Source: Sutcliffiella horikoshii DSM 8719
Lineage (GTDB): Bacteria > Bacillota > Bacilli > Bacillales > Bacillaceae_I
NCBI GenBank assembly: GCA_001648575.1
Contig: LQXN01000054.1
Location: forward strand, 1 to 64,000
Direction: 5' to 3'
Length of the DNA: 64,000 nt
Under the pieces are notes generated by a model. It saw nothing but the letters and a program-made list of their open reading frames with translations, searched no databases and was not told the origin of the DNA. The first letter of the stretch is position 1. Every line of letters begins with the position of its first letter. The position numbers were made by a program, and so were the translations under genes. Below, piece after piece: positions 13,232 to 48,106 of the stretch.

Positions 13232-13257
13232 AGACACATGGAAAATTCCATGCGTCT
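13232..13257 (-). terminator. gene-distal copy of the surface-protein terminator
   Basis: The 26-nt stem-loop (AGACGCATGG...CCATGTGTCT on the minus strand) is followed by TTTTTC. It is a one-mismatch copy of the stem-loop at 13699-13724. The T-tract is present only here, on the far side of the inserted repeat from the gene it would terminate. Confidence 0.75.
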
Positions 13258-13698
13258 AAGTGTGTAGACAAAGATATACTCGAGTTATAAATTCCCTGTT
13301 GATCGAAGTGGAAGGAACGTAGACTCCAGCGGGACAATAAAGGGACAGGTAAGACCCCGCAACGGAGGAGGCCACTGAAAAACCCAATAACTAATCTTAT
13401 TTTCAATTTCTAGCTGTTGATTGGAGCAATAGGTGAAGACTCCTGCGGGGGGATAGCGACATTCTTGAGACCCCGCAGGGCGTAGCCCGAGGAGGCTCAA
13501 GGTCGCCCCGCGGAAAGCGAAGCCGTTTGCGGAAATCAACAGCGGTTTGAAACAGATAACTAAAATATTCTACTTTTTCAATGGCCTCAGGCGGAGTGAG
13601 GAGGCTTACGGACCGCCCACTGGAAAGCGAAGTTCCTGCAGCGAAGATCAACCGTCCCATCAGATAACCTAACTAATTTATAGTTCGTCAACGGTCAG
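13258..13698 (+). mobile_element. terminator-associated repeat, type 1, copy 1 (interrupted)
   Basis: Its ends are AAGTGTGTAGACAAAG at the left and TTCGTCAACGGTCAG at the right, matching the inverted ends of the other copies. The body has the type-1 landmarks: GTTGATCGAAGTGGAAGG, ACTCCAGCGGGAC, AAGACCCCGC, GAGGAGGCTTACGGACCGCC, GGAAAGCGAAG and GATCAAC. The body is split by a type-2 element at 13368-13588; without it the element is about 220 bp. It is flanked by 26-nt stem-loop copies (13232-13257 and 13699-13724). The short ORFs across it are chance. Confidence 0.8.
13368..13588 (+). mobile_element. nested type-2 repeat inside copy 1
   Basis: It begins GAGGCCACTGAAAAA and ends TTTTTCAATGGCCTC, a 15-bp inverted pair with one mismatch. 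The body is of a second subfamily: ATTGGAGCAATAGGTGAAGA, ACTCCTGCGGGG, GAGACCCCGCAGG, GAGGAGGCTC and GCGGAAATCAACAGCGGTTT. It interrupts the type-1 sequence between CGCAACGGAG and TGAGGAGG, and a related GGCGGAG at the right junction suggests a short target duplication. The nesting shows that type 2 arrived after type 1. Confidence 0.75.
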
Positions 13699-13724
13699 AG
13701 ACACATGGAAAATTCCATGTGTCT
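13699..13724 (-). repeat. gene-proximal copy of the terminator stem-loop
   Basis: The 26-nt stem-loop AGACACATGG...CCATGTGTCT lies 10 nt after the surface-protein stop. On the minus strand no T-tract follows; the repeat begins at once. It pairs with the copy at 13232-13257. Confidence 0.8.
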
Positions 13725-13734
13725 CCTTTTAAAC

Positions 13735-16700
13735 CTATATCACTCTTCTTCTCTTTCTCACAAACACCAAGCACCCTACTCCTATTAGCAGTAGAATAAA
13801 CCCGATAACATATATGTCATATAGATTACTAGCTGTGTTCGGAAGCTTTTCTCCACTCTGGTTTTTCTTTCCGTCCCCTTTACCAGGCACTCCCGGGTTG
13901 TTCACTTTAACAGGTTCTGATGGTTTTCCAGGCTCTCCTGGTTTTGGGTCAACTGGATTCGGCTTACTTGGATCCGTCCCCGGTTTAGCCGGATTACTTG
14001 GTCCTCCAGGATCACCCGGTGTCCCCGGCCCACCCGGATTACCTGGATTACCCGGGTTACCCGGATTGCCAGGATTAGTCGGGTCTGGCGTCGATGGAAC
14101 GTCCGTCGCCACACCTTTCGTAAAGGTCCAGATATCTGAAGTTGTTTGTCCAGTATGCTCATCTTCCACTACTACATACCACCAGTAGCGCTCATTTTCT
14201 TCAAGTCCTTCCCAGACCATTTCCGCTACACTTCCGCTCTCAACAGCCTCTTGGTTGCCGATTTCGACTTCTGTGTAGACATTCACTGCAAAATAGTCAG
14301 TTGCCACGCGCTTTTCTTTTGGCTGAAGGTCGAGCTCTAATATAAACTCGTCCTTGCCAGGGTAGTTTTCTGTATCATAATAATTATATTGATCTAAATA
14401 TGGAGAATAGGTGTTCACGATGATTCGGTTATTATCCATATCAAAATGCAGCAGGCGCATGAAGCCTTGGCCACCTTCCGGACCTGCCTGATAGTCGGCA
14501 AGCATTTGATAGACGTGGCGGTCAGGTACTCCATCTCCATCATCATCCACTTCATCGATCAGTGTTTGAGCCTCATGATAATGACCACTCAACACAGCAA
14601 TGACATTCTCATTTGGTAATACAACTTGTTCATACAGCTTGTCACCAAGCGGATGACGGACACCCGTCGCCTGCAAGTACTCGTGGAAACTTAAGATCGC
14701 CATTCGGTCTGGATGGGCAGCAAGCACCTCATTCATCCAGGCTATTCCCTCGTCTTCCACACCCCAGCCAAGATAGACCATAATATAGTCATTTCCATTG
14801 GCAGATATAAGGTCATAATGTCCGCGGTTATTTTCATAAGAACCGCCATAGTATGGCTTATCTTCAAAGCGGTCCGCACCGAAGTATTTGTAATACTCCG
14901 TGTAGTCATTGGTCTTATGGTCCACATCATGATTTCCTGCAAGCACGCCATATGGAATGTTTGATTCATCCAGGACACCCATAAAACGATCTGCATAGAT
15001 CCATTGGTATTCCTGATTGGCCGTATTCACAAGGTCTCCTGTGTGGAATACGTATTTGATTTTCATTTCCTCTTTCTTTTCTGCGATCCAGTTCGTCTGT
15101 CTTTCAAAAATGTGAGGATAGCTCTCCGCATAATACTGCGTATCTGTCATCCAGACAAAGGTATAATCGTAATCCTCAGAAGAGGCCGGTATTTCATCTT
15201 GGACGAGCACGTTGATGTTTTGGTCTTTAACAAAGTCGGTTACAGCCACCTCACCCTGCAAACCAAAATCCTCTGTGCCGGCAATTTTGTAATCAACAAT
15301 CTGCCATTTTTGAGTCGTGTGGTTCCATGCATACATGGTCACCTTTCTGCCCTCAAGAGAGTTCCCTTTCCATACAAGTTCGATCGTGTCCCCTTCTTGA
15401 ATGGAAGAATCCACTGTCACATCAAAACGGTGGTACGGGAATTCAGTGGAGGAGTCGGTGATAAGGTATTCACCATCCTCTGTTGATACAAGAGCAATGT
15501 CCTCTTCTGTGAAAGCTTCCTCGCCATCTGGAACCATCGTTTGTGGCGGTTCTATCTCATTGCTGTTTTTAAAGCCCTTCATGCGATCATTTTGTGTTGC
15601 TTCATACTTGTACCCGCCGTAGAAAGTAACATCCAAGTCATCATCGGTCGGATCGGCTACTTTCACCTTCAATGTCGGGTCTCCATCGACAGGTGTTTGG
15701 GCATCGTCAGCCGGGGAGACAAGCTCTGGCTTAAACGGATTTTCATTTACGACTGAAAAATGCACGATCTTGATCGCTTCATTTCCAGCCTCATCCACTG
15801 CAACAACTTTTAACGAGTGCTCACCGGCAGAAAGCTTGGAAGAAGCCGTTTCATATGGCGTGGCAATCTCCTTGTCATCGAGTAGTGCCTTCACTTCTTT
15901 TACACCAGCAATGGCATCAGTAGCAGACACATCGATGGTAAAAGCACCTTTGTATTCCTTTCCTTCCTCTAAGGAAGTGGTGATGCTAGGGGCTGTATTA
16001 TCTACCAGTACGTTCGTTACAATTTCCTCATCTTTGTCGATGGCGGAAATCACATGCTCGCCATCCTCAGCGGTAGTCGTATCCCACTTATACGACTTGG
16101 ACGGAGCCTGTTCTCCCGTGATGGTAAAAGTAAAGTCTTCAAAAATCCGGTAGGTTCCATCATCCCCCATGTCGAACACTTGGGCCGGGTCATTTTTCAC
16201 CGGATCGCGAAGAATGGTTCCATCGGCCAAGACAAGACGGACGTTCTTTAAGTTGTAATCATCACGATTGTCCAGTGATTCCAAGTCAAAAGGAGAAGCC
16301 TTGTTCCCCGCTCGGATCGTGATGGTATTGTCGCCAAGCTCCAGTTTATCCGGATGGATCGGAACGGTGATCGTCTGCCATTCATTAATCCAATCATCGA
16401 AAATGTGCAGGATTTCATCTCCCATGGTGACACCATTTTGGAAAAAGGTATTGATTCCGCTCACCTCAAAGGCAAAATAGGAGGTGTGTTCGACAGCTTG
16501 GAATGTATCCCCTTCCACTTCCGCTCCATCTATCAGAAGTTTCACATCTTCCGGAGCATCCGTGCTGGAAGTCCCTTTCAGGATCTTTTCCCCAGCTAGG
16601 ATCTCCCCTTCTTTTACATTCAAACGGAGGCTTGAGAAATCAAGTTCTGATGTGACATTCACCCGATACTTCTCGGTTGTCACTTCATTCGTTCCATCTG

Positions 16701-19689
16701 ATATTTCAAAATAATACTCCACATACTCTTTGGCAATAATCTCTGGTGAGTACACCGTATGGTGGTAAAGCAAATCATTGTAATCCTTGATCAGAATAGC
16801 CTGTGAAAACTCTTCCTGATCATTTGTGCGGTAAAACAACCGAACCGTCTTCACTTCTTTGTCGTCCTGTGCGTCCACGATAATTTCTATATTCTCTGTC
16901 TGGTCGACCTCGGTTACTTTTGTTAAGTTTTCATAGGTCGGTGGGACGTGATCCGCTTCAAGCTGCACGGTTTCAACAGGTACCTGTGAAGGATCGACCT
17001 TACCAGGCGTTGCTGCTTTCTCCGCTGCACTGATCTTGACCATTTGTGTAGAGCCATCCAGCGGATAACGATATAAAACCGCCATATCAGGTGCTGTATC
17101 CTTCACATTCGGAACATCATTATAATAAGCGACCGCTAATTCCTTTTTAGAATTTGTAGCAACAACTAGTCCTCGCATCGCCGCATTGGCCATGCCATCG
17201 CTGTAGATGCGCACGATATTTTGATCCTCCACCAAATCAGAACCATAGTTGGCATTAAAGTCGGCCACAGTCTGATTGCGGTTTTGCGCATTGATGATCC
17301 AGAACACAAGCGTTTCTTTTGAAGGAATGACCACATCATCCGGAATGGATGGCCACACCACATCTGTTGCGCTCTCTGCCCCGTAACGATAATAAATCTT
17401 GTAATCTTTAAAATTCAGATCCTGATTCGTATTATTATAAATTTCGATAAACTCATATCCATCCGCCGACCCGACATTCGTCGAATCCGGAACCACTTCT
17501 GTCACCAAGAATGGCGGCAGGGATTGATAATCAACCTCGGATTGTTCTACCGAAATCGTAAATTCTTCCGTTTTGGACACATTCCATCCGTCCGTCGCCT
17601 CGATATAATACACCATATCCCCTGCTACCTCTGCCCCAGGGATCTCGGCTGTGTAAACAGATGAACTTCCAGAACCAGGATTCATCGATAAGGAGGTAAA
17701 TGTTTCGTCTCCTTGCTTTTTGTAAAATAAGGTTGCAAAAGGTTTTGCCATATTGTCAGTAATCGTCGCTTCTATGCGGATTGCCGAATACGTATTGCCA
17801 GATATGACCGGCTTATGCTCCACCACTGGCGCTTCTGTATCTTCCGGTATTTCTTCCAGGTCCACAGGCTTTGTCGGCACCTGGTTCGTTTTTACCGTTC
17901 CTGGCGTCGGTGCTGCTAATACCTCCAGCTTTTCCATCGCCGTTCCACTTGACGGAAACAGGTAATCGATCCCCGCCCCGTCATTGTCATTCTCAGTGCC
18001 AAGGTAGCTCGCTGAAACAACCTCCGCACCTTCTGCATCCTTCAGTACAAGTGCACGATTGCCACCATTCGCAAACCCAGGGAACACATCCCTGAATTCC
18101 ACCACCTGGTCACGGTTTAGCTCCAGTCCAAAGTTTTCATTAAAATCAGCAAGCGTCCTGTTGCCGTTGTTATACCAAAATACAACATGCCCTTGAGGCT
18201 CAATGATCGCTGCAGGAACCTGAAATGGCAGCTCATTTCCCGTGTCTGTATACCTGTAGACAAAAGAATAGTTTGCAAGATTCATTGGTTGATTTGTATT
18301 GTTATATACTTCGAAAAACTCATAGTAATCCGTCCCGCCGCCTTTGGAGTTCGGGGACAGCTCTGTAATCAGGACCTGCAGCTCACTGTATGTTTCCTCT
18401 GGTACATCTACCATGATGGTGGACGGTTCAGAGGATGCTGTGTTGGTCCCATCTGTTGCTTCTATGTAATAAGTGATTGGTGCATCCACCTTAGAAGCCG
18501 GGATTTCGGCGATGTACGTTGATGTCGCCTCTTGCAGTTGCATACTGACGCTTGTAAAGTTTCCCTCTGACTCTTTTTTATAAAAAAGTGTCGCGGCAGT
18601 CACGCCAACGTCATCCGCTATCGTTGCCTGAACGGGGATGGCAGTGAACCTTTCCGCTTCCGTGATCATTGTGTGCTCAATAACCGGCGGTGTTTGATCA
18701 ACAACTGGAGCTTCCTCTTCCTCCACTGTCACAGGATGCGCAGGAACTTGAACGGCATCAATCGATCCAGGTGTCGGTAACGCAAGAACTGCATGCTTGT
18801 CCATCACCGTTCCGCTAGATGGATATTTATACTCGATCCCTGCCCCATTGTTATCATTTTCCGTTCCAAGATAACTGGCAGAAACCAATCCCTTCCCTTG
18901 CTTATCCTTTATCACCAATGCGCGGTTTCCGCCATTCGCAAAGCCAGGGAAGGCATCCTTAAAAGAAACCACCTGCTTTTCTGTCAGCGCTAAACCATAA
19001 TTCTGGTTAAAGTCAGCTAAGATGCGGTCTCCATTGTTATACCAAAACACAAGGGTTTCCTGTGATTCAATCGTCGTTTCAGGGACAGCGAAAGGAATTT
19101 CCCTTCCAGTATCCGTATATGTATAGATAAAATTCAGATTCGCTGTAGATATCGCCTGATCTGTATTATTGTAGAGCTCAAAGTACTCATAATAATCAGT
19201 TCCAGCACCAGCTGAATTGGGAGAAATCTCTGTGATGAGTAGATGTGGGAGCAGGTTATAATCCAGCTCTTCTGTGATGGTTTCTTCTTCCGGTTGTTGC
19301 ACTTCAGTAGAATCTTCTGGTTGCTCTGTTTCCGTTGATTCATCGTTTTCTTCCTGATTGGAAGATGAGGCAGCTTCTGTTTGTTGTTCTTCTTTTACCT
19401 GCTCTTCCTTTAAGGGTTTTTCAACTTCAATTGAAGGTTCTTCCGTTACCTCCTCTTCCACCGGTTCCACTTCAGGTGGCTTCGGTTCTGTCCGTTCATC
19501 TTCAGGAGGATCTGTCACTTCCTCCGGCTCTGTTACCTCTGTCTCTTCTACAGTAGGTGTCACCGGCACTTCACCCTCCGCCTTTACCACCATGAGCGGC
19601 ACTATCGGCTGAAAGCTCGTACCTATAATTGCAAAAATCATCAAACAAGACAACAGTTTCCTAGCAAACTTCCACTTCACTTTCTTCAT
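13735..19689 (-). CDS. LPXTG-anchored surface protein with lamin-tail domains and metallophosphoesterase domain
   Basis: A 1984-residue wall protein. Order: signal peptide (about 1-38), a Glu/Pro/Thr-rich stretch (about 40-140), lamin-tail domain 1 (from about 148, LLITEISPNSAG), domain 2 (from about 438, VLITELSPNSKG), domain 3 (from about 728, FLVTEVVPDSTN), Ig-like segments between and after them, a calcineurin-like phosphoesterase (about 1510-1720), a Pro-Gly repeat stalk with GNPGNPGNPGNPG (about 1865-1930), and a sortase signal LPNTA at about 1948 followed by a helix and RKRRR. Phosphoesterase motifs are VWMTDTQYY, HTGDLVN, AGNHDVDH, LSFHEY and SGHYHE. GGAGG lies 6 nt before the chosen ATG; a start 30 nt upstream is less likely. 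Domains 1 and 2 are near-duplicates. The likely role is extracellular phosphate-ester or nucleic-acid cleavage; the substrate is unknown. Confidence 0.9.
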   Translation of the reverse strand: MKKVKWKFARKLLSCLMIFAIIGTSFQPIVPLMVVKAEGEVPVTPTVEETEVTEPEEVTDPPEDERTEPKPPEVEPVEEEVTEEPSIEVEKPLKEEQVKEEQQTEAASSSNQEENDESTETEQPEDSTEVQQPEEETITEELDYNLLPHLLITEISPNSAGAGTDYYEYFELYNNTDQAISTANLNFIYTYTDTGREIPFAVPETTIESQETLVFWYNNGDRILADFNQNYGLALTEKQVVSFKDAFPGFANGGNRALVIKDKQGKGLVSASYLGTENDNNGAGIEYKYPSSGTVMDKHAVLALPTPGSIDAVQVPAHPVTVEEEEAPVVDQTPPVIEHTMITEAERFTAIPVQATIADDVGVTAATLFYKKESEGNFTSVSMQLQEATSTYIAEIPASKVDAPITYYIEATDGTNTASSEPSTIMVDVPEETYSELQVLITELSPNSKGGGTDYYEFFEVYNNTNQPMNLANYSFVYRYTDTGNELPFQVPAAIIEPQGHVVFWYNNGNRTLADFNENFGLELNRDQVVEFRDVFPGFANGGNRALVLKDAEGAEVVSASYLGTENDNDGAGIDYLFPSSGTAMEKLEVLAAPTPGTVKTNQVPTKPVDLEEIPEDTEAPVVEHKPVISGNTYSAIRIEATITDNMAKPFATLFYKKQGDETFTSLSMNPGSGSSSVYTAEIPGAEVAGDMVYYIEATDGWNVSKTEEFTISVEQSEVDYQSLPPFLVTEVVPDSTNVGSADGYEFIEIYNNTNQDLNFKDYKIYYRYGAESATDVVWPSIPDDVVIPSKETLVFWIINAQNRNQTVADFNANYGSDLVEDQNIVRIYSDGMANAAMRGLVVATNSKKELAVAYYNDVPNVKDTAPDMAVLYRYPLDGSTQMVKISAAEKAATPGKVDPSQVPVETVQLEADHVPPTYENLTKVTEVDQTENIEIIVDAQDDKEVKTVRLFYRTNDQEEFSQAILIKDYNDLLYHHTVYSPEIIAKEYVEYYFEISDGTNEVTTEKYRVNVTSELDFSSLRLNVKEGEILAGEKILKGTSSTDAPEDVKLLIDGAEVEGDTFQAVEHTSYFAFEVSGINTFFQNGVTMGDEILHIFDDWINEWQTITVPIHPDKLELGDNTITIRAGNKASPFDLESLDNRDDYNLKNVRLVLADGTILRDPVKNDPAQVFDMGDDGTYRIFEDFTFTITGEQAPSKSYKWDTTTAEDGEHVISAIDKDEEIVTNVLVDNTAPSITTSLEEGKEYKGAFTIDVSATDAIAGVKEVKALLDDKEIATPYETASSKLSAGEHSLKVVAVDEAGNEAIKIVHFSVVNENPFKPELVSPADDAQTPVDGDPTLKVKVADPTDDDLDVTFYGGYKYEATQNDRMKGFKNSNEIEPPQTMVPDGEEAFTEEDIALVSTEDGEYLITDSSTEFPYHRFDVTVDSSIQEGDTIELVWKGNSLEGRKVTMYAWNHTTQKWQIVDYKIAGTEDFGLQGEVAVTDFVKDQNINVLVQDEIPASSEDYDYTFVWMTDTQYYAESYPHIFERQTNWIAEKKEEMKIKYVFHTGDLVNTANQEYQWIYADRFMGVLDESNIPYGVLAGNHDVDHKTNDYTEYYKYFGADRFEDKPYYGGSYENNRGHYDLISANGNDYIMVYLGWGVEDEGIAWMNEVLAAHPDRMAILSFHEYLQATGVRHPLGDKLYEQVVLPNENVIAVLSGHYHEAQTLIDEVDDDGDGVPDRHVYQMLADYQAGPEGGQGFMRLLHFDMDNNRIIVNTYSPYLDQYNYYDTENYPGKDEFILELDLQPKEKRVATDYFAVNVYTEVEIGNQEAVESGSVAEMVWEGLEENERYWWYVVVEDEHTGQTTSDIWTFTKGVATDVPSTPDPTNPGNPGNPGNPGNPGGPGTPGDPGGPSNPAKPGTDPSKPNPVDPKPGEPGKPSEPVKVNNPGVPGKGDGKKNQSGEKLPNTASNLYDIYVIGFILLLIGVGCLVFVRKRRRVI

Positions 19690-19859
19690 CACTAACCTCC
19701 ACCAAACTATTTTGAACATTTAAAATTTTACAGATGGATTGTTAAGTGAGTATGAAGGTGTTGTAAAATTTGTTGATATTTGGCTAAAATTGTTGAGACT
19801 TCCTATTCATCATCTTCAGAAGAAACGAGCTCCGGCTTTATTTAAAGTCATAAATAAAA

Positions 19860-19884
19860 ATGGTTTTTAAGTCTGGAAACCACT
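19860..19884 (-). terminator. gene-distal copy of the carD terminator
   Basis: A 25-nt stem-loop (AGTGGTTTCC...AAAACCAT on the minus strand) followed by TTTTTATTT. It matches 20095-20119 except for four changes, mostly in the loop. The repeat copy 2 lies between the two. Confidence 0.7.
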
Positions 19885-20094
19885 CAGTGTATAGACAAAA
19901 CCTCAGAATAATGAAATTTCCTAATTGATCGCAGTGGAAGGAGCGAAGACTCCCGCGGGAGGAAGAGACATGTAAGACCCCGCAGGCGTAGCCGAGGAGG
20001 CTTACGGACCGCCCGCAGGAAAGCGTAGCTCCTGTAACGAAGATCAATTGTTCCAACTGATAACTTAACTAGTTTATAGTTTTCAACAGTCTGA
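19885..20094 (+). mobile_element. terminator-associated repeat, type 1, copy 2
   Basis: This is 210 bp long. The left end is CAGTGTATAGACAAAA and the right end TTTTCAACAGTCTGA. The body holds TTGATCGCAGTGGAAGGAGC, GACTCCCGCGGGAGG, AAGACCCCGCAGGCGTAGCC and GAGGAGGCTTACGGACCGCC, and closes with GATCAATTGTTCCAACTG. It is flanked by matching 25-nt stem-loops. Relative to carD transcription it is inverted. No credible ORF is present. Confidence 0.85.
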
Positions 20095-20119
20095 ATGGTT
20101 TCCTCGTCTGGAAACCACT
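20095..20119 (-). repeat. gene-proximal copy of the carD terminator stem-loop
   Basis: The 25-nt stem-loop (GGTTTCC and GGAAACC arms) lies on the carD side of repeat copy 2, without a T-tract on the minus strand. It is the partner of 19860-19884. Confidence 0.75.
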
Positions 20120-20925: not shown

Positions 20926-21071
20926 TTGCAATTCTTTTCATTTCCTGATATGATTAAGAGAATTATTTTTGTTCGGTGTAAAGGATAGTATGAATATTAA
21001 CTTTTCAACTTGATCTACTTTGACCAAGGATAGTAATACAATGTGTGATAACGCACTAGGAGGCAACAAAA
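20926..21071 (+). promoter_or_regulatory. cspC promoter and long leader
   Basis: TTGCAA (20926-20931), a 17-nt spacer and TATGAT (20949-20954) form a good sigma-A promoter. Transcription would begin near 20961, leaving a leader of about 110 nt before cspC, as is usual for cold-shock mRNAs that change structure with temperature. GGAGG stands 11 nt before the ATG. Confidence 0.6.
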
Positions 21072-21272
21072 ATGGAACAAGGTACAGTAAAATGGTTTAA
21101 TGCAGAAAAAGGTTTTGGCTTTATCGAACGCGAAAATGGAGACGATGTATTCGTACACTTCTCCGCTATCCAAAGTGATGGCTTCAAATCTTTAGACGAA
21201 GGTCAAAAAGTAACTTTTGACGTTGAGCAAGGTGCTCGTGGAGCTCAAGCTTCTAACGTTCAAAAAGCTTAA
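21072..21272 (+). CDS. cspC: cold-shock protein CspC
   Basis: A 66-residue CSD-fold protein that binds single-stranded RNA and DNA. RNP1 is KGFGFIER at about 13-20 and RNP2 is VFVHFSAI at about 26-33. The sequence [20 protein letters not shown] matches CspC rather than CspB or CspD of B. subtilis. It acts as an RNA chaperone or antiterminator in cold and stationary phase. It is monocistronic, with a long leader and a strong terminator. Confidence 0.95.
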
Positions 21273-21287
21273 TATTAAGCCTTAAAA

Positions 21288-21319
21288 ACAGGCCCTCTAT
21301 GTAGAGGGCCTGTTTTTTT
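21288..21319 (+). terminator. cspC intrinsic terminator
   Basis: ACAGGCCCTCTA and TAGAGGGCCTGT form a perfect stem followed by TTTTTTT. It is intact and not duplicated. Confidence 0.95.
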
Positions 21320-21329
21320 ATGTTTTTCT

Positions 21330-22812: not shown

Positions 22813-23067
22813 GATAAGCTTCGAGAGTTTTATAATCGTACTCATTCTTTCTTTAAGTCTAAGCTAGTTCATAGTAAAAAGACAAATACGAAAACTCCAC
22901 GATCTCAATGGTGCTCTCTATATGCTATATTAGCGAAAAAAACTCTACCTCGACTAAAAACATTTAAAATTCTAGATGGTTTACAATAAAATACGAACAT
23001 TTTATTATTTACATAACAATAAAGTTCGTTTATAATCAAATTTGTGTTGAAGTTACTTATAAAGTTT

Positions 23068-23136
23068 CATTCGTATATTCTTAGTGATATGGTCTAAGAG
23101 TTTCTACTAGGAGCCGTAAAATCCTAACTACGAATG
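23068..23136 (+). ncRNA. purine riboswitch aptamer, guanine class
   Basis: P1 is a perfect 8-bp CATTCGTA/TACGAATG. P2 is CTTAG/CTAAG with the GATATGG loop and junction, and P3 is TAGGA/TCCTA around GCCGTAAA. The core TTTCTAC is present. The specificity base in AACTACG is C, which pairs with guanine; adenine aptamers have T there. It lies about 100 nt before guaC. Confidence 0.93.
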
Positions 23137-23160
23137 GGTAGGATTGCTCTGCCCATTTTT
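23134..23160 (+). terminator. riboswitch-controlled terminator in the guaC leader
   Basis: ATGGGTAG pairs with CTGCCCAT, followed by TTTTT. An alternative pairing joins AATCCTA of the aptamer (23120-23126) to TAGGATT (23139-23145) and would break both P3/P1 and the terminator. Ligand binding should therefore favour termination (an OFF switch). Confidence 0.8.
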
Positions 23161-25530: not shown

Positions 25531-25562
25531 AGAGCTGCTTGATATTATATATCAGCAGCTCT
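25531..25562 (-). terminator. gene-distal copy of the mmsA terminator
   Basis: A 32-nt stem-loop with AGAGCTGCTGATAT and CAAGCAGCTCT arms on the minus strand, followed by TTGACTTTTAT. It differs by one base from 25772-25803. Convergent spo0E-like transcription could also use it. Confidence 0.7.
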
Positions 25563-25771
25563 CGGATACAGTTGATAAACTTTATATATTTTTAGAATTG
25601 AAAGTAACTGTTGATTTTCGTTCCAGGCGCTTCGCTTTCCTGCGGGCGGTCCGGAAGCCTCCTCAGGCTTTCGCCTTGCGGGGTCTTCCATGTCCCTTCC
25701 TCCCGCGGGAGTCTTCGCGCCTTCCACTACAATCAACTGGGTAATGGGTATTCTTTATTGTCTTCACAGTG
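25563..25771 (-). mobile_element. terminator-associated repeat, type 1, copy 4
   Basis: This is 209 bp. On the minus strand it begins CACTGTGAAGACAATAAAG and ends GTTTATCAACTGTATCCG. The body has GTTGATTGTAGTGGAAGGCG, GACTCCCGCGGGAGG, AAGACCCCGCAAGGCG, GAGGAGGCTTCCGGACCGCC and GAAAATCAACAG. It lies exactly between two 32-nt copies of the mmsA terminator stem-loop. Confidence 0.87.
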
Positions 25772-25803
25772 AGAGCTGCATGATATTATATATCAGCAGC
25801 TCT
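25772..25803 (-). repeat. gene-proximal copy of the mmsA terminator stem-loop
   Basis: A 32-nt stem-loop starting 10 nt after the mmsA stop, abutting the repeat end CACTGTG with no T-tract. It is the partner of 25531-25562. Confidence 0.8.
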
Positions 25804-25812
25804 TCTGTCTTT

Positions 25813-40083: not shown

Positions 40084-40129
40084 ATGTTATTCCTCCATAT
40101 ACTTTTCATTTTAATAGTGTACTTTTACG

Positions 40130-40152
40130 GATTCTCTTGAAAGAGAGGAGCT
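40130..40152 (-). repeat. gene-distal stem-loop copy beside repeat copy 5
   Basis: On the minus strand AGCTCCTCT-CTTTCA-AGAGAATC, a two-mismatch copy of the stem-loop at 40365-40388. The mismatches damage the stem and no T-tract remains. Confidence 0.65.
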
Positions 40153-40364
40153 TAGATTGATGACAAACCCTTATCATCTTTAGAAATCGCATTTTCTTGT
40201 TGATCTTCGTTCCAGGAGCTTCGCTTTCCTGCGGGCGGTCCGGGAGCCTCCTCGGCTTCGCCTGCGGGGTCTCCCATGTCCCTTCCTCCCGCGGGAGTCT
40301 CTGCTCCTTCCACTACAATCAACAGGGGATTATTAACTAGAAAATAACTTTGTCTACACACTGG
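40153..40364 (-). mobile_element. terminator-associated repeat, type 1, copy 5
   Basis: About 212 bp. On the minus strand it begins CCAGTGTGTAGACAAAG and ends TTTGTCATCAATCTA. The body has GTTGATTGTAGTGGAAGGAG, GACTCCCGCGGGAGG, GAGACCCCGCAGGCGAAGCC, GAGGAGGCTCCCGGACCGCC and GGAACGAAGATCAACAAG. It lies between the two stem-loop copies after the LLM gene. Confidence 0.85.
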
Positions 40365-40388
40365 GATCCTCTTGAAAGAGAGGATCTT
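40365..40388 (-). repeat. gene-proximal terminator stem-loop beside repeat copy 5
   Basis: GATCCTCT-CTTTCA-AGAGGATC, an 8-bp perfect stem, 57 nt after the LLM-oxidoreductase stop and abutting the repeat end. Confidence 0.75.
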
Positions 40389-41393: not shown

Positions 41394-41463
41394 ACTTTTT
41401 AACCCTACCCTTTCATAACTAACTATCAGTTTTCCTATGTGATTAACTGAACTTCCCAGTTAA

Positions 41464-41637
41464 TTATGCAGTTCCTTGCTTTACTGAATTTGGATTTACG
41501 ACATGATATTTGCCCCCACTCTGTAAAAAAAACATGAATGGTCGTAATTCGGAATGACCACATTTAGGACAATAACCACTTTCTTTTGTTATCGTTAGGC
41601 ATCTGTCGCAAACGTGTCTATGTTTTGCATTTGACAT
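41464..41637 (-). CDS. 57-residue zinc-ribbon protein
   Basis: A short protein with two Cys pairs, HVCDRCLTIT and GYCPKCGHSE, spaced as in a treble-clef or rubredoxin-like ribbon, then LRPFMFFLQSGGKYHVV. An in-frame ATG 6 nt upstream is an equally possible start because AAAGGT lies 10 nt before it. The coding frame has no stops and the Cys pairs are unlikely by chance. It sits between the LLM gene and an Rrf2 regulator. Function is unknown; a metal-binding or nucleic-acid-binding accessory role is likely. Confidence 0.65.
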   Translation of the reverse strand: MSNAKHRHVCDRCLTITKESGYCPKCGHSELRPFMFFLQSGGKYHVVNPNSVKQGTA

Positions 41638-41819
41638 AACCATATATTTATCATACCTTTCTTTATTTTATTGAATGAAACCTTAAAGGATTTAGCGAAG
41701 TCAACTGAACTTAAAATAGTTACAGTTTATACAAAAGGAAACTTAAATCACCTAACTAAAATAGCATTTATCATCTGTAACAAAAAATATTACATTTAGA
41801 CCAAAAATAAAACAACTTA

Positions 41820-42236
41820 TTAATATTGTTTTATTTTCTTTAAGATGGATGCAATGGAAGTACGATCGAGGTACGCTGAAAAATATTGATCGGTTTCCTC
41901 AAAGACCTCATCCATCACAAGTTGAATATTAGAAGCAACCACACATTCCTCTTCAGGATCTCCGGAGCACCAATTGGGTTTAATCGTTGCACCTGACACT
42001 GAGCGGTAGATTTGCCCCAATGTAATCTCATCAGGATCTTTTTGAAGAATGTAGCCTCCTCCTATTCCTTCCTTTGTTCGTACAAATCCATGGTTACGCA
42101 AACAACTCATTATTTTACGAATTCTTGCTGGATTTGTGGAAACATTGTCCGCAATCTTTTGACTACTTGCCATATGATCAGGCAAATGCGCTAAAAGAAC
42201 TAAGCTATGAACGGCTATCGTAAATTCACTATTCAC
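41820..42236 (-). CDS. Rrf2-family transcriptional regulator
   Basis: A 138-residue regulator. The winged HTH is ASSQKIADNVSTNPARIRK then SCLRNHGFVRTKEGIGGGY. Only one Cys pair region (NWCSGDPEEECVVA) is present rather than the three clustered Cys of IscR, so a cluster is not assured; YwnA-like members have such a layout. It starts at GTG with AGGAAG 9 nt upstream. It probably acts on the nearby LLM or quinone-reductase genes or on itself. Confidence 0.88.
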   Translation of the reverse strand: MNSEFTIAVHSLVLLAHLPDHMASSQKIADNVSTNPARIRKIMSCLRNHGFVRTKEGIGGGYILQKDPDEITLGQIYRSVSGATIKPNWCSGDPEEECVVASNIQLVMDEVFEETDQYFSAYLDRTSIASILKKIKQY

Positions 42237-42340
42237 TGGATTTCACTTCCTCTTGGAACCTGTACTGTAATAATAATTAATACAGTTTAAAAAGTCAATG
42301 AAATGATCAGTTGCTTTAATTCCAATTTTTAGTAGGAATT

Positions 42341-42374
42341 AAAAAAAGGTTGACCACCTTGACCGGAGTCAACC
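42341..42374 (-). terminator. hxlR intrinsic terminator
   Basis: GGTTGACTCC and GGTGGTCAACC arms on the minus strand, followed by TTTTTTT. Confidence 0.88.
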
Positions 42375-42408
42375 ATAAATCACCAATGAAAATTTACCTA
42401 ATTGACTC

Positions 42409-42759
42409 TTATCTTATTAAGGGGTTCAACCCAGCAGTTTCCATATAATCTTTTCCCCAATTATACATAGCATCGAGAATCGGCATCAAACTTCTTCCTT
42501 GTTCAGTAAGGGAGTATTCTACTTTTGGAGGAACCACGGGATAGACTTCGCGGTTTACAATCAAGTCTTCTTCCAGTTCTCGCAATTGATTGACTAGCAT
42601 CCTCTGCGTGATCCCTGGCATAAGAGCTTTCAATTCACCAAATCGCTTCGTTCCCTCTTTTCCTAGATGCCATAGTATAAGCATCTTCCATTTACCACCG
42701 ATAACGGAAAGAGTTAATTCTTTTTCACAATTAAACACCTTTTCCTCCATTCGCGACAT
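42409..42759 (-). CDS. hxlR: HxlR-family regulator, formaldehyde-responsive activator
   Basis: A 116-residue HxlR-type winged-helix protein closely matching B. subtilis Hxl[41 protein letters not shown], then [20 protein letters not shown]. Cys10 of FNCEKEL is the conserved Cys that reacts with formaldehyde in the B. subtilis protein. HxlR activates hxlAB there. GGAGGTGATG lies before the ATG. An operator half-copy of the hxlA and zwf sites lies 30-70 nt upstream. Confidence 0.93.
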
Positions 42760-42791
42760 TTCACATCACCTCCATATTTATTATAGTCCAT

Positions 42792-42831
42792 AGTATACTT
42801 TTTTCACTAAATAATATATAAGTCCGTACTT
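42792..42831. promoter_or_regulatory. HxlR-type operator at the hxlR promoter
   Basis: AGTATACTTTTTTCACTA and AAGTCCGTACTT with the same internal order as the hxlA operator at 45626. It is oriented away from hxlR, opposite to its orientation at zwf and hxlA. AAGTNCGNACTT is a dyad. Confidence 0.65.
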
Positions 42832-42879
42832 GTTATATCCTTCCATACAACATATTCATTGTTTTCATTACCATCTAAC

Positions 42880-42910
42880 AACTAACAGATGTATTTCTGT
42901 TAGTTTTTTT
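42880..42910 (+). terminator. plus-strand intrinsic terminator overlapping the gnd stop
   Basis: AACTAACAGA and TCTGTTAGTT form a 10-bp stem followed by TTTTTT on the plus strand. No plus-strand gene precedes it. On the minus strand it lacks a T-tract but may still stabilise the gnd 3' end. Confidence 0.6.
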
Positions 42911-43793
42911 CAACACCATGTCCACCAAATTCGTTTCTTAATGCAGCTACTACTTTACCTGTAAAAGTATCATTATCTAATGAACGGTAACGCATCAAAA
43001 GCGACATTGCGATAACAGGAGTGGCTGCTTGTAAATCTAAAGCTGTTTCAACTGTCCATTTCCCTTCACCAGAAGAGTGCATAATCCCTTTAATTTCATC
43101 TAGATTTGCATCTTTTGAAAATGCACGTTCAGTCAATTCCATGAGCCATGAACGAATAACGGAACCGTTATTCCACACTCTAGCCACTTTTTCGTAGTCA
43201 AAATCGAATTCGCTCTTTTCTAATACCTCGAATCCTTCACCGATTGCTGCCATCATACCGTATTCAATTCCATTGTGGACCATTTTTAAGAAATGGCCGC
43301 TCCCTGCTTTACCAGCATAGATATATCCGTTTTCGACAGCTGTATCCTTAAAAATAGGTTCCACGATTCTCCAGGCTTCAGGGTCTCCACCAATCATATA
43401 ACATGCTCCATTACGAGCACCTTCCATTCCACCAGAAGTGCCGGCATCCATGAAGTGAATCCCTACTTCCTTTAGCTGGTTGTATCGGCGGATGGATTCC
43501 TTATAATGAGAATTCCCAGCTTCAATTACGATATCCCCAGCACTTAATAATGGTGTCATTTCATCAATTACCGAATCCACTACAGCATGAGGAACCATAA
43601 TCCATACAATTCTTGGTTTTTCTAATGATTCAACAAGTTCTTTTAAATCAGATGTACCTTGAGCACCGTGGTTCTTCATTTCTTCAACGGAACTTCTATT
43701 TACATCGAATGCTACTACTTCGTGCTTGTTATCAATTAAATTTTGACCTAAGTTCAATCCCATTTTTCCTAATCCAATTAATCCAACTTTCAT
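42900..43793 (-). CDS. gnd: decarboxylating 6-phosphogluconate dehydrogenase, short NAD-type (YqeC-like)
   Basis: A 297-residue enzyme, the short form of 6PGDH. The Rossmann motif is GLIGLGKMGLNLGQNL, the substrate region VIEAGNSHYKESIRRYNQ, the catalytic DAGTSGGMEGARNGACYMIG, and the catalytic KMVHNGIEYGMM. It forms ribulose-5-phosphate and CO2. In the dissimilatory RuMP cycle this regenerates the formaldehyde acceptor and releases CO2. AGGAGG lies 9 nt before the ATG; an ATG 6 nt earlier is too close. It is co-transcribed with zwf. Confidence 0.92.
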   Translation of the reverse strand: MKVGLIGLGKMGLNLGQNLIDNKHEVVAFDVNRSSVEEMKNHGAQGTSDLKELVESLEKPRIVWIMVPHAVVDSVIDEMTPLLSAGDIVIEAGNSHYKESIRRYNQLKEVGIHFMDAGTSGGMEGARNGACYMIGGDPEAWRIVEPIFKDTAVENGYIYAGKAGSGHFLKMVHNGIEYGMMAAIGEGFEVLEKSEFDFDYEKVARVWNNGSVIRSWLMELTERAFSKDANLDEIKGIMHSSGEGKWTVETALDLQAATPVIAMSLLMRYRSLDNDTFTGKVVAALRNEFGGHGVEKN

Positions 43794-43841
43794 GTTCATT
43801 TCCTCCTAAGATAATCTAAAAATATACTTCATTTTTTATTA

Positions 43842-45299
43842 CTACCACCATTTATATCCTTCCTCTGCCAATAATCGATGGGAAGCATCTGGTCCTGTTG
43901 ACCCTGATGGATATATTTGAAGGGGAATTGTATTTTCCTCAAAAGCCTCTAAGATGGGCTGTACCCATTTCCAAGACAATTCTACTTCTTTCCAATGCGC
44001 AAAGAATGTTGAGTCGCCACGCATTGCATCGTAAATTAAACGCTCATACGCTTCAGGAACATCTGCTTGTTTAGAAGAAAAATCAACACTGACTGGTTCG
44101 ATTTTTCCATTGTTTAATGGATTTTTACTATTTAATTGTAATGAAACACTTTCGTTTGGATTGATTTCAATCACTAAAAGATTTGGGGCAGTTTCTTCTT
44201 CTTGAGTCCTGTATAAATCCTTTGATGTATTTTTGAATTCAATCACAATTCTGGTGGATTTCTCTGTCATTCTTTTTCCTGTACGGATATAGAAAGGAAC
44301 CCCTCTCCAAAAATCATCATCCACATATAGACGGGCAGCCACAAATGTGTCAATTAGTGAAGAAGGAGCAACATCAGGTTCTCCTGTATATCCAACAACT
44401 GGTTTTCCTTGGATTTCACCAGGAGCATATTGGCCTCGAATCACATGATTCACCACATCCTCTTTCTTTAATGGACGCAGTGATTCTATTATTTTTCTCT
44501 TTTCATTGCGGATCTCTTCTGCACTTATTTGTTTTGGCAGCTGCATTGCTGTCATCATCAACATTTGCAGCATATGGTTTTGAAACATGTCGCGAATAGC
44601 CCCGGCATTATCATAATAACCAGCTCTCTCTTCAACCCCAACTGTTTCGGCTGAAGTAATTTGCACATTTGCAACGTATCGGTTGTTCCATAATGCTTGA
44701 AGCACTGGATTTGCAAACCCTAACGCTTCCAGGTTTTGTACCATTGGTTTTCCAAGATAGTGGTCGATGCGAAATATTTCTTCTTCATCGAAAGCTTTGC
44801 TTAGTTTATCGTTTAATTCTTGAGCTGATTTTAAGTCATGCCCAAAAGGTTTTTCGATAATTAGACGTTTCCAACCATTAGTAGAACCTAGACCACTCTC
44901 TTTAATGTTGGAAGCAATCACATTAAAAAGCTCTGGAGCAACAGATAGGTAGAACATACGATTTTCTGGAATATTCAATTCTTCTTCACGTTGTTTAACG
45001 AGTTCAAGTAATCCTTTATATCCTTCAGCCTTGATAGCATCTACATGGCTATAACGAAAGGCACGGATAAACACTTCAAGGTTTGAATCGTCATGTAGTG
45101 ATCGTCTAGAAAATCCTTTTAAAGAATCTTTCACATGTTTTTGGAAATCAGTATCTGATAATTCTCCTCTGCCCACCCCGATAATGGAGATGGGCAGAGG
45201 TAATTTTTTATCCAAAAATAAATTATATAGAGCAGGGAAGATTTTTCTTTTTGCTAAGTCCCCTGTCGCCCCAAATAAGACAAATGTCATTGCCTCCAT
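43842..45299 (-). CDS. zwf: glucose-6-phosphate 1-dehydrogenase
   Basis: A 485-residue enzyme with NADP motif FGATGDLAKRKIFPALYNL, substrate loop RIDHYLGKPMVQNLEAL and the CRGD-like region KPFGHDLKSAQEL. It oxidises glucose-6-phosphate and yields NADPH for the oxidative branch. With HxlA, HxlB, phosphoglucose isomerase (elsewhere) and Gnd it closes a formaldehyde-to-CO2 cycle. GGAGG lies 9 nt before the ATG. An HxlR-type operator lies 83 nt upstream. Confidence 0.97.
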   Translation of the reverse strand: MEAMTFVLFGATGDLAKRKIFPALYNLFLDKKLPLPISIIGVGRGELSDTDFQKHVKDSLKGFSRRSLHDDSNLEVFIRAFRYSHVDAIKAEGYKGLLELVKQREEELNIPENRMFYLSVAPELFNVIASNIKESGLGSTNGWKRLIIEKPFGHDLKSAQELNDKLSKAFDEEEIFRIDHYLGKPMVQNLEALGFANPVLQALWNNRYVANVQITSAETVGVEERAGYYDNAGAIRDMFQNHMLQMLMMTAMQLPKQISAEEIRNEKRKIIESLRPLKKEDVVNHVIRGQYAPGEIQGKPVVGYTGEPDVAPSSLIDTFVAARLYVDDDFWRGVPFYIRTGKRMTEKSTRIVIEFKNTSKDLYRTQEEETAPNLLVIEINPNESVSLQLNSKNPLNNGKIEPVSVDFSSKQADVPEAYERLIYDAMRGDSTFFAHWKEVELSWKWVQPILEAFEENTIPLQIYPSGSTGPDASHRLLAEEGYKWW

Positions 45300-45382
45300 T
45301 TAACCTACCTCCAAAAATTTCAGTATTTCGTGAAACATTGTTGCAACAAGATGTAAGTATAATACCTACATTTCTCAAATGG

Positions 45383-45427
45383 AAGTACGCACTTTTTATT
45401 TAAATAGTGTTAAAAAAATTACATACT
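45383..45427 (-). promoter_or_regulatory. HxlR-type operator upstream of zwf
   Basis: On the minus strand AGTAT, CACTATTTAAATAA and AAGTGCGTACTT appear in the order of the hxlA operator, with about 6 extra nt in the T-tract. AAGTGCGTACTT is a 12-bp dyad. Confidence 0.7.
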
Positions 45428-45625
45428 AACAAAATGTATACTATAAGAAATAAACTCTTCTATTTAAGTGTTAAAAAAATTAAAAGCCAGGGTGAGGATC
45501 CTCTCCTTGGCCACAAACATATATGATATTAATTTTTTGAGAACAGTTTTTTTATGTGTTGAAGCTTTGGGCATAATAAGCGGGCTATTTAAACGGGAGG
45601 TGTCACAAACAGCGATTGGTCTTAC

Positions 45626-45666
45626 AGTATACTTTTTAGCACTATGTAAATTAAAAGTGCGTACTT
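45626..45666 (+). promoter_or_regulatory. HxlR-type operator upstream of hxlA
   Basis: AGTATACTTTTTAGCACTA and AAGTGCGTACTT, near-identical (inverted) to the zwf copy and aligned with the hxlR copy. It ends 141 nt before hxlA. The gap 45668-45807 holds the promoter and leader; the rest of 45300-45807 has no gene I support. Confidence 0.75.
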
Positions 45667-45807
45667 TTAATATTTAATCATACGTTATATACTTGCAATT
45701 GTTCAGTGAGAGGCCATGATATTCCTTATTACTTGCAGGTAGATAGTGCACTATAAGGAGAAGTTATCGCTGTTCAAAAATAAAAAAAATTATAGGAGTG
45801 AATATAG

Positions 45808-46440
45808 ATGGAATTACAATTAGCATTAGATTTAGTAAATATTCCAGAAGCAATTGAGTTAGTTAAAGAAGTGGAGGATCACATTGATATCGTCGAAATC
45901 GGCACACCGGTTGTAATCAATGAAGGACTTCATGCAGTAAAAGCAGTAAAAGAAGCATTCCCTAACTTAAAGGTATTAGCAGACCTTAAAATCATGGATG
46001 CAGCTGGTTATGAAGTAATGAAAGCTTCTGAAGCAGGTGCTGATATCGTGACAATTCTTGGAACTGCTGAAGATATGTCCATTAAAGGTGCTGTGGAAGA
46101 AGCGAAAAAACAAGGTAAAAAAATCCTTGTTGATATGATTGCGGTTAAAGACCTTGCTGGTCGTGCAAAAGAAGTGGACGCTATGGGCGTTGATTATATT
46201 TGTGTTCATACTGGCTACGATCTTCAAGCAGTTGGAAAGAACTCTTTTGAAGATTTACAAACCATCAAAAGTGTTGTAAAAAATGCTAAAACTGCAATCG
46301 CAGGTGGTATTAAGTTAGAAACACTTCCAGAAGTCATCAAAGTACAACCAGACCTTGTCATTGTAGGTGGCGGGATTACTGGCCAAGCTGATAAAAAAGC
46401 TGCTGCTGCCAAAATGCAACAAATGATTAACCAAGGGTAA
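45808..46440 (+). CDS. hxlA: 3-hexulose-6-phosphate synthase
   Basis: A 210-residue orotidine-decarboxylase-fold enzyme that joins formaldehyde to ribulose-5-phosphate. The LALDLVNIPEAIELVKEVED strand-helix, EIGTPVVINEGL, ADLKIMDAAGYEV (Asp-x-Lys-x-x-Asp catalytic motif) and VDYICVHTGYDLQA are present. GGAG lies 11 nt before the ATG. It is co-transcribed with hxlB 8 nt downstream. Confidence 0.97.
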   Translation: MELQLALDLVNIPEAIELVKEVEDHIDIVEIGTPVVINEGLHAVKAVKEAFPNLKVLADLKIMDAAGYEVMKASEAGADIVTILGTAEDMSIKGAVEEAKKQGKKILVDMIAVKDLAGRAKEVDAMGVDYICVHTGYDLQAVGKNSFEDLQTIKSVVKNAKTAIAGGIKLETLPEVIKVQPDLVIVGGGITGQADKKAAAAKMQQMINQG

Positions 46441-46448
46441 TTCAAATC

Positions 46449-47006
46449 ATGAATACAACTCAATACCTAGCTGAAATCATAAAAGAGTTAAATCGCTCCG
46501 TAGATTTAATTTCGAATGATGAAGCTGAAAAACTAGTTAATGGGATTCTTGAATCAAAAAAAATCTTTGTTGCTGGCGCAGGTAGATCTGGATTTATGGC
46601 CAAATCATTCGCCATGCGAATGATGCACATGGGGATAGATGCCTATGTGATTGGCGAAACAGTAACCCCTAACTTTGAAGAAGATGACATCTTAATCATT
46701 GGATCAGGTTCAGGAGAAACAAAAGGTTTAGTTTCCATGGCTGAGAAGGCAAAAAGCATCGGTGGGACTATTGCAGCTGTAACGATTTTCCCTGAGTCCA
46801 CTATTGGACAATTAGCGGATATCACCATTAAGTTGCCTGGCTCACCTAAAGATCAGTCAGAGAGTGACTTTAAGACGATTCAACCAATGGGCTCATTATT
46901 TGAGCAAACACTTTTACTATTTTACGACGCTGTGATTCTTCGGTTCATGGAGAAAAAAGGGTTGGATACCAATAAAATGTACGGTAAACACGCCAACTTA
47001 GAATAG
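46449..47006 (+). CDS. hxlB: 6-phospho-3-hexuloisomerase
   Basis: A 185-residue SIS-domain isomerase that turns hexulose-6-phosphate into fructose-6-phosphate. SIS core FVAGAGRSGFMAKSFAMRMM and ILIIGSGSGETKGLVSMAEK, then the C-terminal PMGSLFEQTLLLFYDAVIL. It follows hxlA by 8 nt and ends before a strong terminator. Confidence 0.97.
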   Translation: MNTTQYLAEIIKELNRSVDLISNDEAEKLVNGILESKKIFVAGAGRSGFMAKSFAMRMMHMGIDAYVIGETVTPNFEEDDILIIGSGSGETKGLVSMAEKAKSIGGTIAAVTIFPESTIGQLADITIKLPGSPKDQSESDFKTIQPMGSLFEQTLLLFYDAVILRFMEKKGLDTNKMYGKHANLE

Positions 47007-47033
47007 ATATATTATTCCTCGAGTTCTAAATAG

Positions 47034-47076
47034 GAAAGACCGCAACTGTTTTCATGCAAGTTTGCGGTCTTTCTGC
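47034..47076 (+). terminator. hxlAB terminator
   Basis: GAAAGACCGCAA and TTGCGGTCTTTC arms, with a short T-tract included in the stem. Confidence 0.85.
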
Positions 47077-47117
47077 TAGAATAAACTACTATTTGTAATT
47101 TTTTTAGGAGTGATAAA

Positions 47118-47837
47118 ATGATTTCTTTAAATGGAAAAACTGCAATAGTTACTGGCGCAGGAAGAGGCATTGGCCGAGCTACTGCTATCGCCTTAGCCAA
47201 AGAAGGCGTTCATTTAGGCCTAATCGGCTTAAGTATGTCTAATCTTGAAAAGGTAGCTGCTGAACTAGCACAATTTGATGTTAAGGTTTCTGCAGCAACA
47301 GCAGATGTGACCGATCTTGAATCCGTGACCCATGCTGTTGAACATATCAAATCAGACCTAGGCCCAATTGATATCCTAATCAACAATGCTGGTGTTGCTA
47401 AATTTGGTGGGTTCCTTGATCTAACACCAGAAGAATGGGAAAAAATCATCCAAGTCAATTTAATGGGTGTGTATAATGTAACAAGAGCAGCATTACCAGG
47501 AATGATCGAAAGAAAATCAGGAGATATCATCAATATTTCTTCATCTGCCGGCCAAAAAGGTGCTCCTGTTACAAGTGCTTACAGTGCTTCTAAATTCGCT
47601 GTATTAGGGCTAACAGAATCACTTATGCTAGAAGTAAGAAAACATAATGTCCGTGTCACTGCTTTAACACCGAGTACGGTCGTTACAGATTTAGCGATTG
47701 ATACAAATCTTGTTAAAGGCAATGAAGAAAACGTGATGCACCCAGAAGACCTTGCAGAATTAGTCGTGGCTAGTTTAAAATTCAATCCAAGAGTATTCGT
47801 TAAAACAGCTGGATTATGGTCTACAAATCCATCATAA
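47118..47837 (+). CDS. SDR-family 3-oxoacyl-ACP-reductase-like protein (YoxD-like)
   Basis: A 239-residue short-chain dehydrogenase. The cofactor motif is [24 protein letters not shown] is at [10 protein letters not shown], and the catalytic Ser and YxxxK are in [20 protein letters not shown]. It is closest in pattern to YoxD of B. subtilis, of unknown physiological substrate. AGGAG lies 9 nt before the ATG. It is separate from hxlAB by a terminator. Confidence 0.9.
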
Positions 47838-47839
47838 AA

Positions 47840-47865
47840 AGAAGCAGATCCTATGGTCTGCTTCT
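47840..47865 (+). repeat. gene-proximal stem-loop copy after yoxD-like gene
   Basis: A 26-nt stem-loop AGAAGCAGAT...GTCTGCTTCT starting 3 nt after the stop and abutting the repeat; no T-tract. Confidence 0.85.
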
Positions 47866-48075
47866 CAGTGTGTAGACAAAGTTCAAATATAATAAATTTC
47901 TCTAGTTGATTGCAGTGGAAGGCGCGAAGACTCCCGCGGGAGGAAGGGACATGTAAGACCCCGCAGGCGTAGCCGAGGAGGCTTACGGACCGCCCGCAGG
48001 AAAGCGGAGCGCCTGGAACGAAAATCAACTGTTCCAACAGATAACTTAACTATTTCTTAGTTTGTCAACAGTCTG
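47866..48075 (+). mobile_element. terminator-associated repeat, type 1, copy 3
   Basis: This is 210 bp, the clearest example. The left end is CAGTGTGTAGACAAAG and the right end TTTGTCAACAGTCTG. The body is GTTGATTGCAGTGGAAGGCG, GACTCCCGCGGGAGG, AAGACCCCGCAGGCGTAGCC, GAGGAGGCTTACGGACCGCC, CGGAGCGCC and GAAAATCAACTGTTCC. It separates two 26-nt copies of the terminator stem-loop of the upstream gene. Confidence 0.9.
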
Positions 48076-48106
48076 AGAAGCAGATTCTATGGTCTGCTTC
48101 TTTTTC
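48076..48106 (+). terminator. gene-distal terminator copy of the yoxD-like gene
   Basis: The stem-loop AGAAGCAGAT...GTCTGCTTCT (one base different from the proximal copy) followed by TTTTTCTTT. Only this copy carries the T-tract. Confidence 0.85.

Follow-up and report, generated by a model that had tools for sequence, protein, structure and literature searches.

How an insertion can leave behind a duplication whose length follows a hairpin is the question raised by a 64-kb stretch (64,000 nucleotides, hereafter the window) of the draft genome of Sutcliffiella horikoshii DSM 8719 (4.68 Mb, 67 contigs), in which five copies of a 210-bp repeat each lie between two near-identical stem-loops. One protein of the window is 97–98% identical to its counterparts in S. 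horikoshii, B. tianshenii, and three similar records. With DDE transposases, the target duplication is normally of constant length, dictated by the enzyme. All five copies and their end sequences are as described in the initial annotation, and the flanking duplicates measure 26, 26, 34, 24, and 26 nt (Table 1). The repeat is a non-autonomous miniature inverted-repeat transposable element (MITE) of a group within the IS1182 family of insertion sequences (ISs), here termed clade A, with ends of the form CAG-N3-GT-N-GA-(C/G)-AAA. Most probably, a DDE transposase supplied in trans joins this MITE to symmetric points of a palindrome, which is most simply pictured as a cruciform, and the whole hairpin is thereby duplicated.

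The pattern seen in the window extends across the genome. A total of 105 candidate placements were obtained, of which six with badly fitting ends (at least 10 mismatches) were dropped, and the remaining 99 are all distinct; two further fetched loci hold a copy but yielded none that was kept (L011, with a decayed right end, and L187, a partial copy). The genome thus contains at least 99 copies, a lower bound because 40 of 304 search candidates were scored and the second search used exact end motifs only (83 places, none with reversed motifs). The copies are 207–220 bp long, except for a 441-bp copy that holds a nested element, and have no coding capacity for a transposase. Direct repeats anchored at the element ends (score of at least 11), which start and stop exactly there, flank 96 of the 99 copies, with a length of 18–39 nt (median 26), a mean identity of 0.95, and full identity in 31 of the 96 pairs. 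Flanks taken from different copies scored far lower (1247 pairs; mean −1.16, 99th percentile 5.3), the maximum of 24 perhaps coming from tandem neighbours with a common hairpin, and chance similarity of the true flanks is rejected on this control. Within one site the two hairpins are near-identical, including the loop, and between sites they are unrelated in sequence and length, so that what the initial annotation had proposed from five loci, unrelated stems of varying length, holds genome-wide. Repeated strikes on a single hairpin are shown by tandem arrays in which two elements alternate with three hairpins and by lone element ends next to a duplicated hairpin (L012, L141, L164; L024, L184, L145, L129).

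The assignment to the IS1182 family is based on the element ends and on autonomous relatives. The MITE ends CAGTGTGTAGACAAAG / CAGACTGTTGACAAAC match those of a local IS, CAGCTTGTAGACAAAG / CAGACCGTAGACAAAC, as well as those of intact ISs, and the IS-type end CAGCTTGTAGACAAAC is present on some MITE copies (2 of 96 in an exact 16-nt tally). A remnant of this IS of about 1.5 kb (C4:393188-394685) carries a broken transposase gene and has the hairpin duplicated on both sides, and a partial copy of this IS lies on contig C58. Among the 61 genomes searched, relatives of the IS occur in 12, and the repeat or its core occurs in 31. Thirty IS loci were read, among which nine elements with both ends sit between duplicated hairpins, including elements of 1549–1550 bp with transposases of 456–464 aa. 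One intact transposase (L206, genome G027) scores 485.6 bits with NF033551 (cut-off 270) and exceeds the cut-offs of Pfam DDE_Tnp_1_6, DUF772, and DDE_Tnp_1; judged by these profiles, it is an IS1182-family DDE transposase. A sequence search for solved structures resembling it found none, the three matches all being ribosomal protein L13 (best E 0.29). The full-length relative with the same ends and a transposase that the initial annotation had envisaged therefore exists, and such elements duplicate whole hairpins too. The target duplication is identical in kind for the MITE and the autonomous elements, and all six full-length MITE copies read in relatives are likewise flanked by duplicated hairpins.

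A wider sample of IS1182 elements comprised 61 transposase loci (58 and three others), in which CAG-type ends were recognized by pattern and one chance match (L303) was left out. A hairpin of 19–42 nt is duplicated at 20 of the 23 CAG-ended elements (L295 being counted by eye owing to an indel), two have unlike hairpins, and one has none. For six multi-copy elements, the hairpin is duplicated in 22 of 23 resolved copies (L352 and L359 are already in the 61-locus count, and L394 falls outside the 23); of the 60 further regions fetched, L396, L397, L398, L410, and L411 were left out of the analysis, and the clade C pairs were covered by their flanks only. In genome G086, three insertions lie in terminators of the same sequence, which presumably follow the end of 5S rRNA, and their duplicates of 22, 18, and 34 nt are all symmetric, implying that one hairpin can be cut at different heights.

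The duplicates are centred on a dyad. Among the outermost seven symmetric positions, 5.91 pair at the true edges, against 2.30–2.34 with the centre shifted by one base and 1.59–2.26 further out. This dyad symmetry is present in every length class (5.44–6.14 of 7, against 1.41–2.38 for a fixed 26-nt window), and each of the 96 duplicates folds more stably than its mononucleotide shuffles do on average (20 shuffles each; mean −13.7 vs −2.5 kcal/mol). On the left the flanks are enriched in A (4.76 of 8, background 2.95) and on the right in T (4.62 of 8, background 2.68), as expected for terminators. G-C pairs make up 2% of duplicate edges against 43% one base inward; the duplicate opens with A in 83 of the 96 sites, which may reflect either a preference in joining or the make-up of terminators, and closes with T in 84. 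Complementarity continues at least one base outward of the edge in 54 of the 96 sites, mostly as A-T pairs. The edges therefore lie at equal heights on the two arms of the stem, in many cases at the border between the stable stem and the A/T tract, and not always at the outermost pair of the hairpin. Recognition and duplication of the hairpin itself, as first proposed, are supported by the dyad-symmetric edges, the single hairpins at empty sites described below, and the like behaviour of the IS relatives, but an edge that always coincides with the end of the stem is not. After insertion, the T-tract remains with the second hairpin and is lost from the first, so that transcription may continue into the MITE and give a 3′ extension.

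The presence of a complete hairpin on either side of the repeat suggests that the enzyme moving it recognises the shape of the DNA and not a sequence or a fixed length. In the mechanism proposed here, the DDE transposase of a clade A element would pair the two MITE ends in trans and capture a palindrome, usually a transcription terminator, that is extruded on both strands. The 3′ ends of the element would be joined to the two 5′ feet at the four-way junction, which lie symmetrically, each on the 5′ side of its arm, and gap repair would copy both arms, leaving a full hairpin at each end of the element. The cruciform is the simplest target because the duplicate length tracks the hairpin and the edges are dyad-symmetric. 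The attack points, 18–42 bp apart in the duplex, would be neighbours in the cruciform whatever the stem length, and the variable length of the duplicates would then no longer be puzzling. The exact length would depend on incomplete extrusion or on branch migration, and the three insertions in G086 fit a migrating junction.

Several observations weigh against this mechanism or narrow it. A sequence preference at the joining point, A first and T last, could contribute to the choice of the edge. Three of the 99 MITE copies do not conform: L156 has unlike hairpins at its two ends, L131 abuts a truncated copy at one end, with a hairpin at the other, and L153 has a degenerate duplicate (20/28). Among autonomous elements, unlike hairpins stand at both ends of L293, L314, and L370, and L334 has no hairpin; the unlike pairs, including those of L156, would be explained by recombination between two copies. 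The element L329 duplicates its hairpin yet falls in another clade of the transposase tree described below, on a long branch. A transposase search of the source genome gave 13 matches, none above the cut-off, and thus no intact clade A enzyme; the element with matching ends on C4 is broken, so that present-day activity there is doubtful. Many of the MITE insertions are old, since the duplicate pairs are identical in only 31 of 96 cases. Finally, extrusion in the cell is a presumption that goes beyond the sequence; much the same products would be expected from a dyad-symmetric duplex or from a hairpin in single-stranded DNA.

The first of these forms, a dyad-symmetric duplex bound by a transposase dimer of flexible spacing with the edge A and T as joining signal, is the strongest competitor, although we regard it as unlikely. 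It would account for the A and T that begin and end most duplicates, but duplicates of 18–39 nt for the MITE and up to 42 nt for autonomous elements would need a dimer that spans one to four helical turns in either rotational phase, and the same hairpin in G086 was cut at three stem positions. Recognition of a hairpin in single-stranded DNA, for example on the lagging strand, with the duplication arising in replication, seems improbable. Terminator hairpins fold well as single strands, and transposases of the IS200/IS605 type recognise hairpins in single strands; however, the enzyme at issue is a DDE transposase, and the known cases of such enzymes involve joining to double-stranded DNA. Moreover, among the 96 sites both element orientations relative to the T-tract are equally used (25 with it, 26 against it, and 45 symmetric), without bias.

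The state of the sites before insertion can be read from relatives. At syntenic empty sites of four insertions, one hairpin was found in 17 cases and two in none, and the hairpin matches the local one of the filled site. For window copy 5, one hairpin is present in five relatives with both flanks conserved (automatic count), whereas the right flank is missing from two relatives at a greater distance. For copy 1, the single relative (L046) has one hairpin. For copy 3, G005 has one hairpin, G015 carries the same insertion, and in G014 (L233) the element is absent and no hairpin is clearly recognizable. For a copy elsewhere in the genome (L030), 10 of 13 relatives keep both flanks, each with one hairpin (six by strict matching and four with mismatches judged by eye), and the remaining three carry other repeats. 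No syntenic empty site was found for copy 4 among L246-L248, and relatives of copy 2 matched on one side only, leaving no readable empty site. Tandem terminators exist in bacteria, and insertion between two that were already there would make the second hairpin no product of the insertion; the initial annotation had named empty sites with two stem-loops as refuting its own reading, and the 17 single hairpins at the readable sites, together with the near-identity of the paired hairpins, loop included, at sites otherwise unrelated, make it very improbable, and it is rejected. Transport of the hairpin from site to site by the repeat found no support and is rejected as practically negligible, the hairpins being unrelated between sites and the single hairpin of the empty sites being the local one.

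Other IS1182 clades leave different products. Clade B elements have ends GAGGCCACTGAAAAA, transposases of about 490–545 aa, and duplications of 8–9 bp in or near the hairpin loop. Of 43 clade B loci, two without ends, two repeats of a site, and two without duplication were set aside, and in 21 of the remaining 37 the sequences that immediately border the duplication are complementary at 8 or more of 10 positions (10.7% in cross-paired controls). When six elements using a GGACNGTCC-like sequence are set apart, the proportion is 19 of 31; related repeat cores hold 12 of the 31, which are not independent cases, and the other 19 include 13 with pairing flanks. Clade B resembles clade A in its family and in often targeting hairpins, including those in the core of this MITE, but duplicates 8–9 bp and not the whole hairpin. 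A sister group of clade B (L326, L332, L413, L418, L429, L430) has ends GAGACCACTGAAAAAG, and its target appears to be a fixed palindromic sequence because its 9-bp duplications have the form GGACNGTCC or GAACCGTCC/GGACGGTTC.

Clade C elements, with ends GGGGCTGTCCC or GAGGCTGGGACA and transposases of 490–630 aa, showed no duplication. Complementary stubs, such as hairpin replacement could leave, were not found beside them at 12 loci, where 5.5 of 12 flank positions are complementary (control 5.5); full removal of a hairpin would leave no stubs. In ends and protein length clade C resembles IS1272 (548 aa, primer with GAGGCTGAGAC; PMC5678879), which itself is not in the tree, and a clade C query matched 117 Staphylococcus plasmid records.

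In a tree of 57 transposases, with rows picked by ends and outcome and with L293, L314, and L334 left out, three changes, the minimum possible, suffice to explain the four outcome labels, and 19 of the 20 clade A rows fall in one well-supported group. The tree shows that insertion outcome follows transposase ancestry; it does not address the residues responsible, because labels and ends are not mutually independent.

Part of this behaviour is known. In staphylococci, IS1272 and TnSha1, both of the IS1182 family, target hairpins without shared sequence, often terminators; IS1272 deletes all or part of the hairpin without duplication, and insertion at varying stem positions was reported for one target (A and A2), according to the available parts of two papers (PMC4923244, PMC5678879). 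The model in the latter, in the portion at hand, proposes branch a for IS1272 and draws branches b, whole-hairpin duplication, and c as possibilities. In that text pathway b is hypothetical, whereas here it is the usual outcome in clade A, and pathway c can be likened to clade B, with its 8–9 bp duplication often in the hairpin loop. Clade A and IS1272/TnSha1 therefore share a transposase family and hairpin targets, but IS1272 loses the hairpin and clade A keeps and duplicates it; an outcome of the IS1272 type, with the hairpin lost and no target duplication, does not describe the MITE copies, as 96 of the 99 have the hairpin duplicated. The ISBma2-like element ISCbo5 of the same family, in Clostridium botulinum group III and C. 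novyi-NT, lies at gene-end hairpins at all sites but one, some sites being ‘slightly altered’ between strains (PMC3098183); both it and clade A thus occupy hairpins that end genes, but the accessible sections of that paper do not mention hairpin duplication.

It is possible to place these outcomes on one scheme, a reading that we hold with about even confidence. Each clade would have its own point of attack on the extruded hairpin: the 5′ feet for clade A, with duplication of the whole hairpin, the loop for clade B, with duplication of 8–9 bp, and the 3′ feet for IS1272-like elements, with loss of the hairpin. IS1182 DDE transposases would then target DNA shape, the duplication length in clade A would be set by the extent of extrusion, and all three branches drawn in 2017 (PMC5678879, as given in its available text) would exist, each as the habit of one clade.

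That IS1182 elements enter terminator hairpins is already established in the consulted parts of PMC3098183, PMC4923244, and PMC5678879; what appears to be new is the observation of whole-hairpin duplication. A literature search, with ISfinder and subscription reviews outside it and with sources available in part, turned up no account in which duplication of the whole hairpin was actually observed. For IS1182, ISfinder gives duplications that are long and differ in length, and an unpublicised record may therefore exist. To our knowledge, no other MITE has a whole hairpin of variable length as its duplication. Other bacterial MITEs are likewise short and non-autonomous, with inverted ends shared with an IS, and no variable-length whole-hairpin duplication is described for them in the available text of PMC10969869.

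A duplication that tracks the hairpin is a readable record of DNA structure at the time of insertion, and a clade A-type MITE is in this respect more informative on mechanism than an ordinary MITE. The 96 duplications in one genome provide a large natural data set for the old question of whether terminator hairpins form cruciforms by extrusion in living cells. They also illustrate how repeats can spread without breaking genes, as a stop signal is entered and a complete one with its T-tract is left behind. If outcome follows transposase clade, as suggested by the tree, comparison between clades could reveal the protein features that choose the point of attack.

Table 1. MITE copies of the window, with their flanking hairpin duplicates and the nested element
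Feature	Position	Strand	Remarks
MITE copy 1	13258..13698	+	lengthened by nested element
Copy 1 left hairpin duplicate	13232..13257	.	25/26 matching right duplicate
Nested element within copy 1	13368..13588	.	221 bp; GAGGCCAYTGAAAAA ends = IS1182 clade B ends
Copy 1 right hairpin duplicate	13699..13724	.	26 nt; L046 empty site has one hairpin
MITE copy 2	19885..20093	+	
Copy 2 left hairpin duplicate	19859..19884	.	22/26 matching right duplicate
Copy 2 right hairpin duplicate	20094..20119	.	26 nt
MITE copy 3	25565..25771	-	diverged ends; insertion common to G015 (L231), site empty in G005 (L232)
Copy 3 left hairpin duplicate	25531..25564	.	31/34 matching; 34 nt, 32 without two unlike end bases
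Copy 3 right hairpin duplicate	25772..25805	.	34 nt
MITE copy 4	40153..40363	-	
Copy 4 left hairpin duplicate	40129..40152	.	22/24 matching right duplicate
Copy 4 right hairpin duplicate	40364..40387	.	24 nt
MITE copy 5	47866..48075	+	served as search query
Copy 5 left hairpin duplicate	47840..47865	.	25/26 matching right duplicate
Copy 5 right hairpin duplicate	48076..48101	.	26 nt, then T-tract; one hairpin at 5/5 fully syntenic empty sites L222-L226

Some further features of the window concern the repeat or its family. At gathering score, no Rfam family covers the repeat, the only matches in the window being a cspA thermoregulator and a purine riboswitch, at 20947-21317 and 23051-23150. The 3′ part of another IS1182-like transposase gene lies at window positions 7-141, and pieces of it occur at the ends of contigs C4, C31, C49, C53, C57, and C67, suggesting that this element probably broke the assembly; CAG ends were not found for it in L031 and the contig-end fragments. 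A core of about 130 bp (GTTGATYG...AATCAAC; window positions ~47902-48030) occurs without IS1182-type ends near terminators in G001, G003, G007, G008, and G013 (L255-L259) and may be an older repeat that the MITE acquired. The nested element in copy 1, whose ends GAGGCCACTGAAAAAC / GAGGCCATTGAAAAAG are shared with autonomous clade B elements, occupies the MITE core, and autonomous clade B elements of other genomes also enter such cores (L372-L380, L421-L423).

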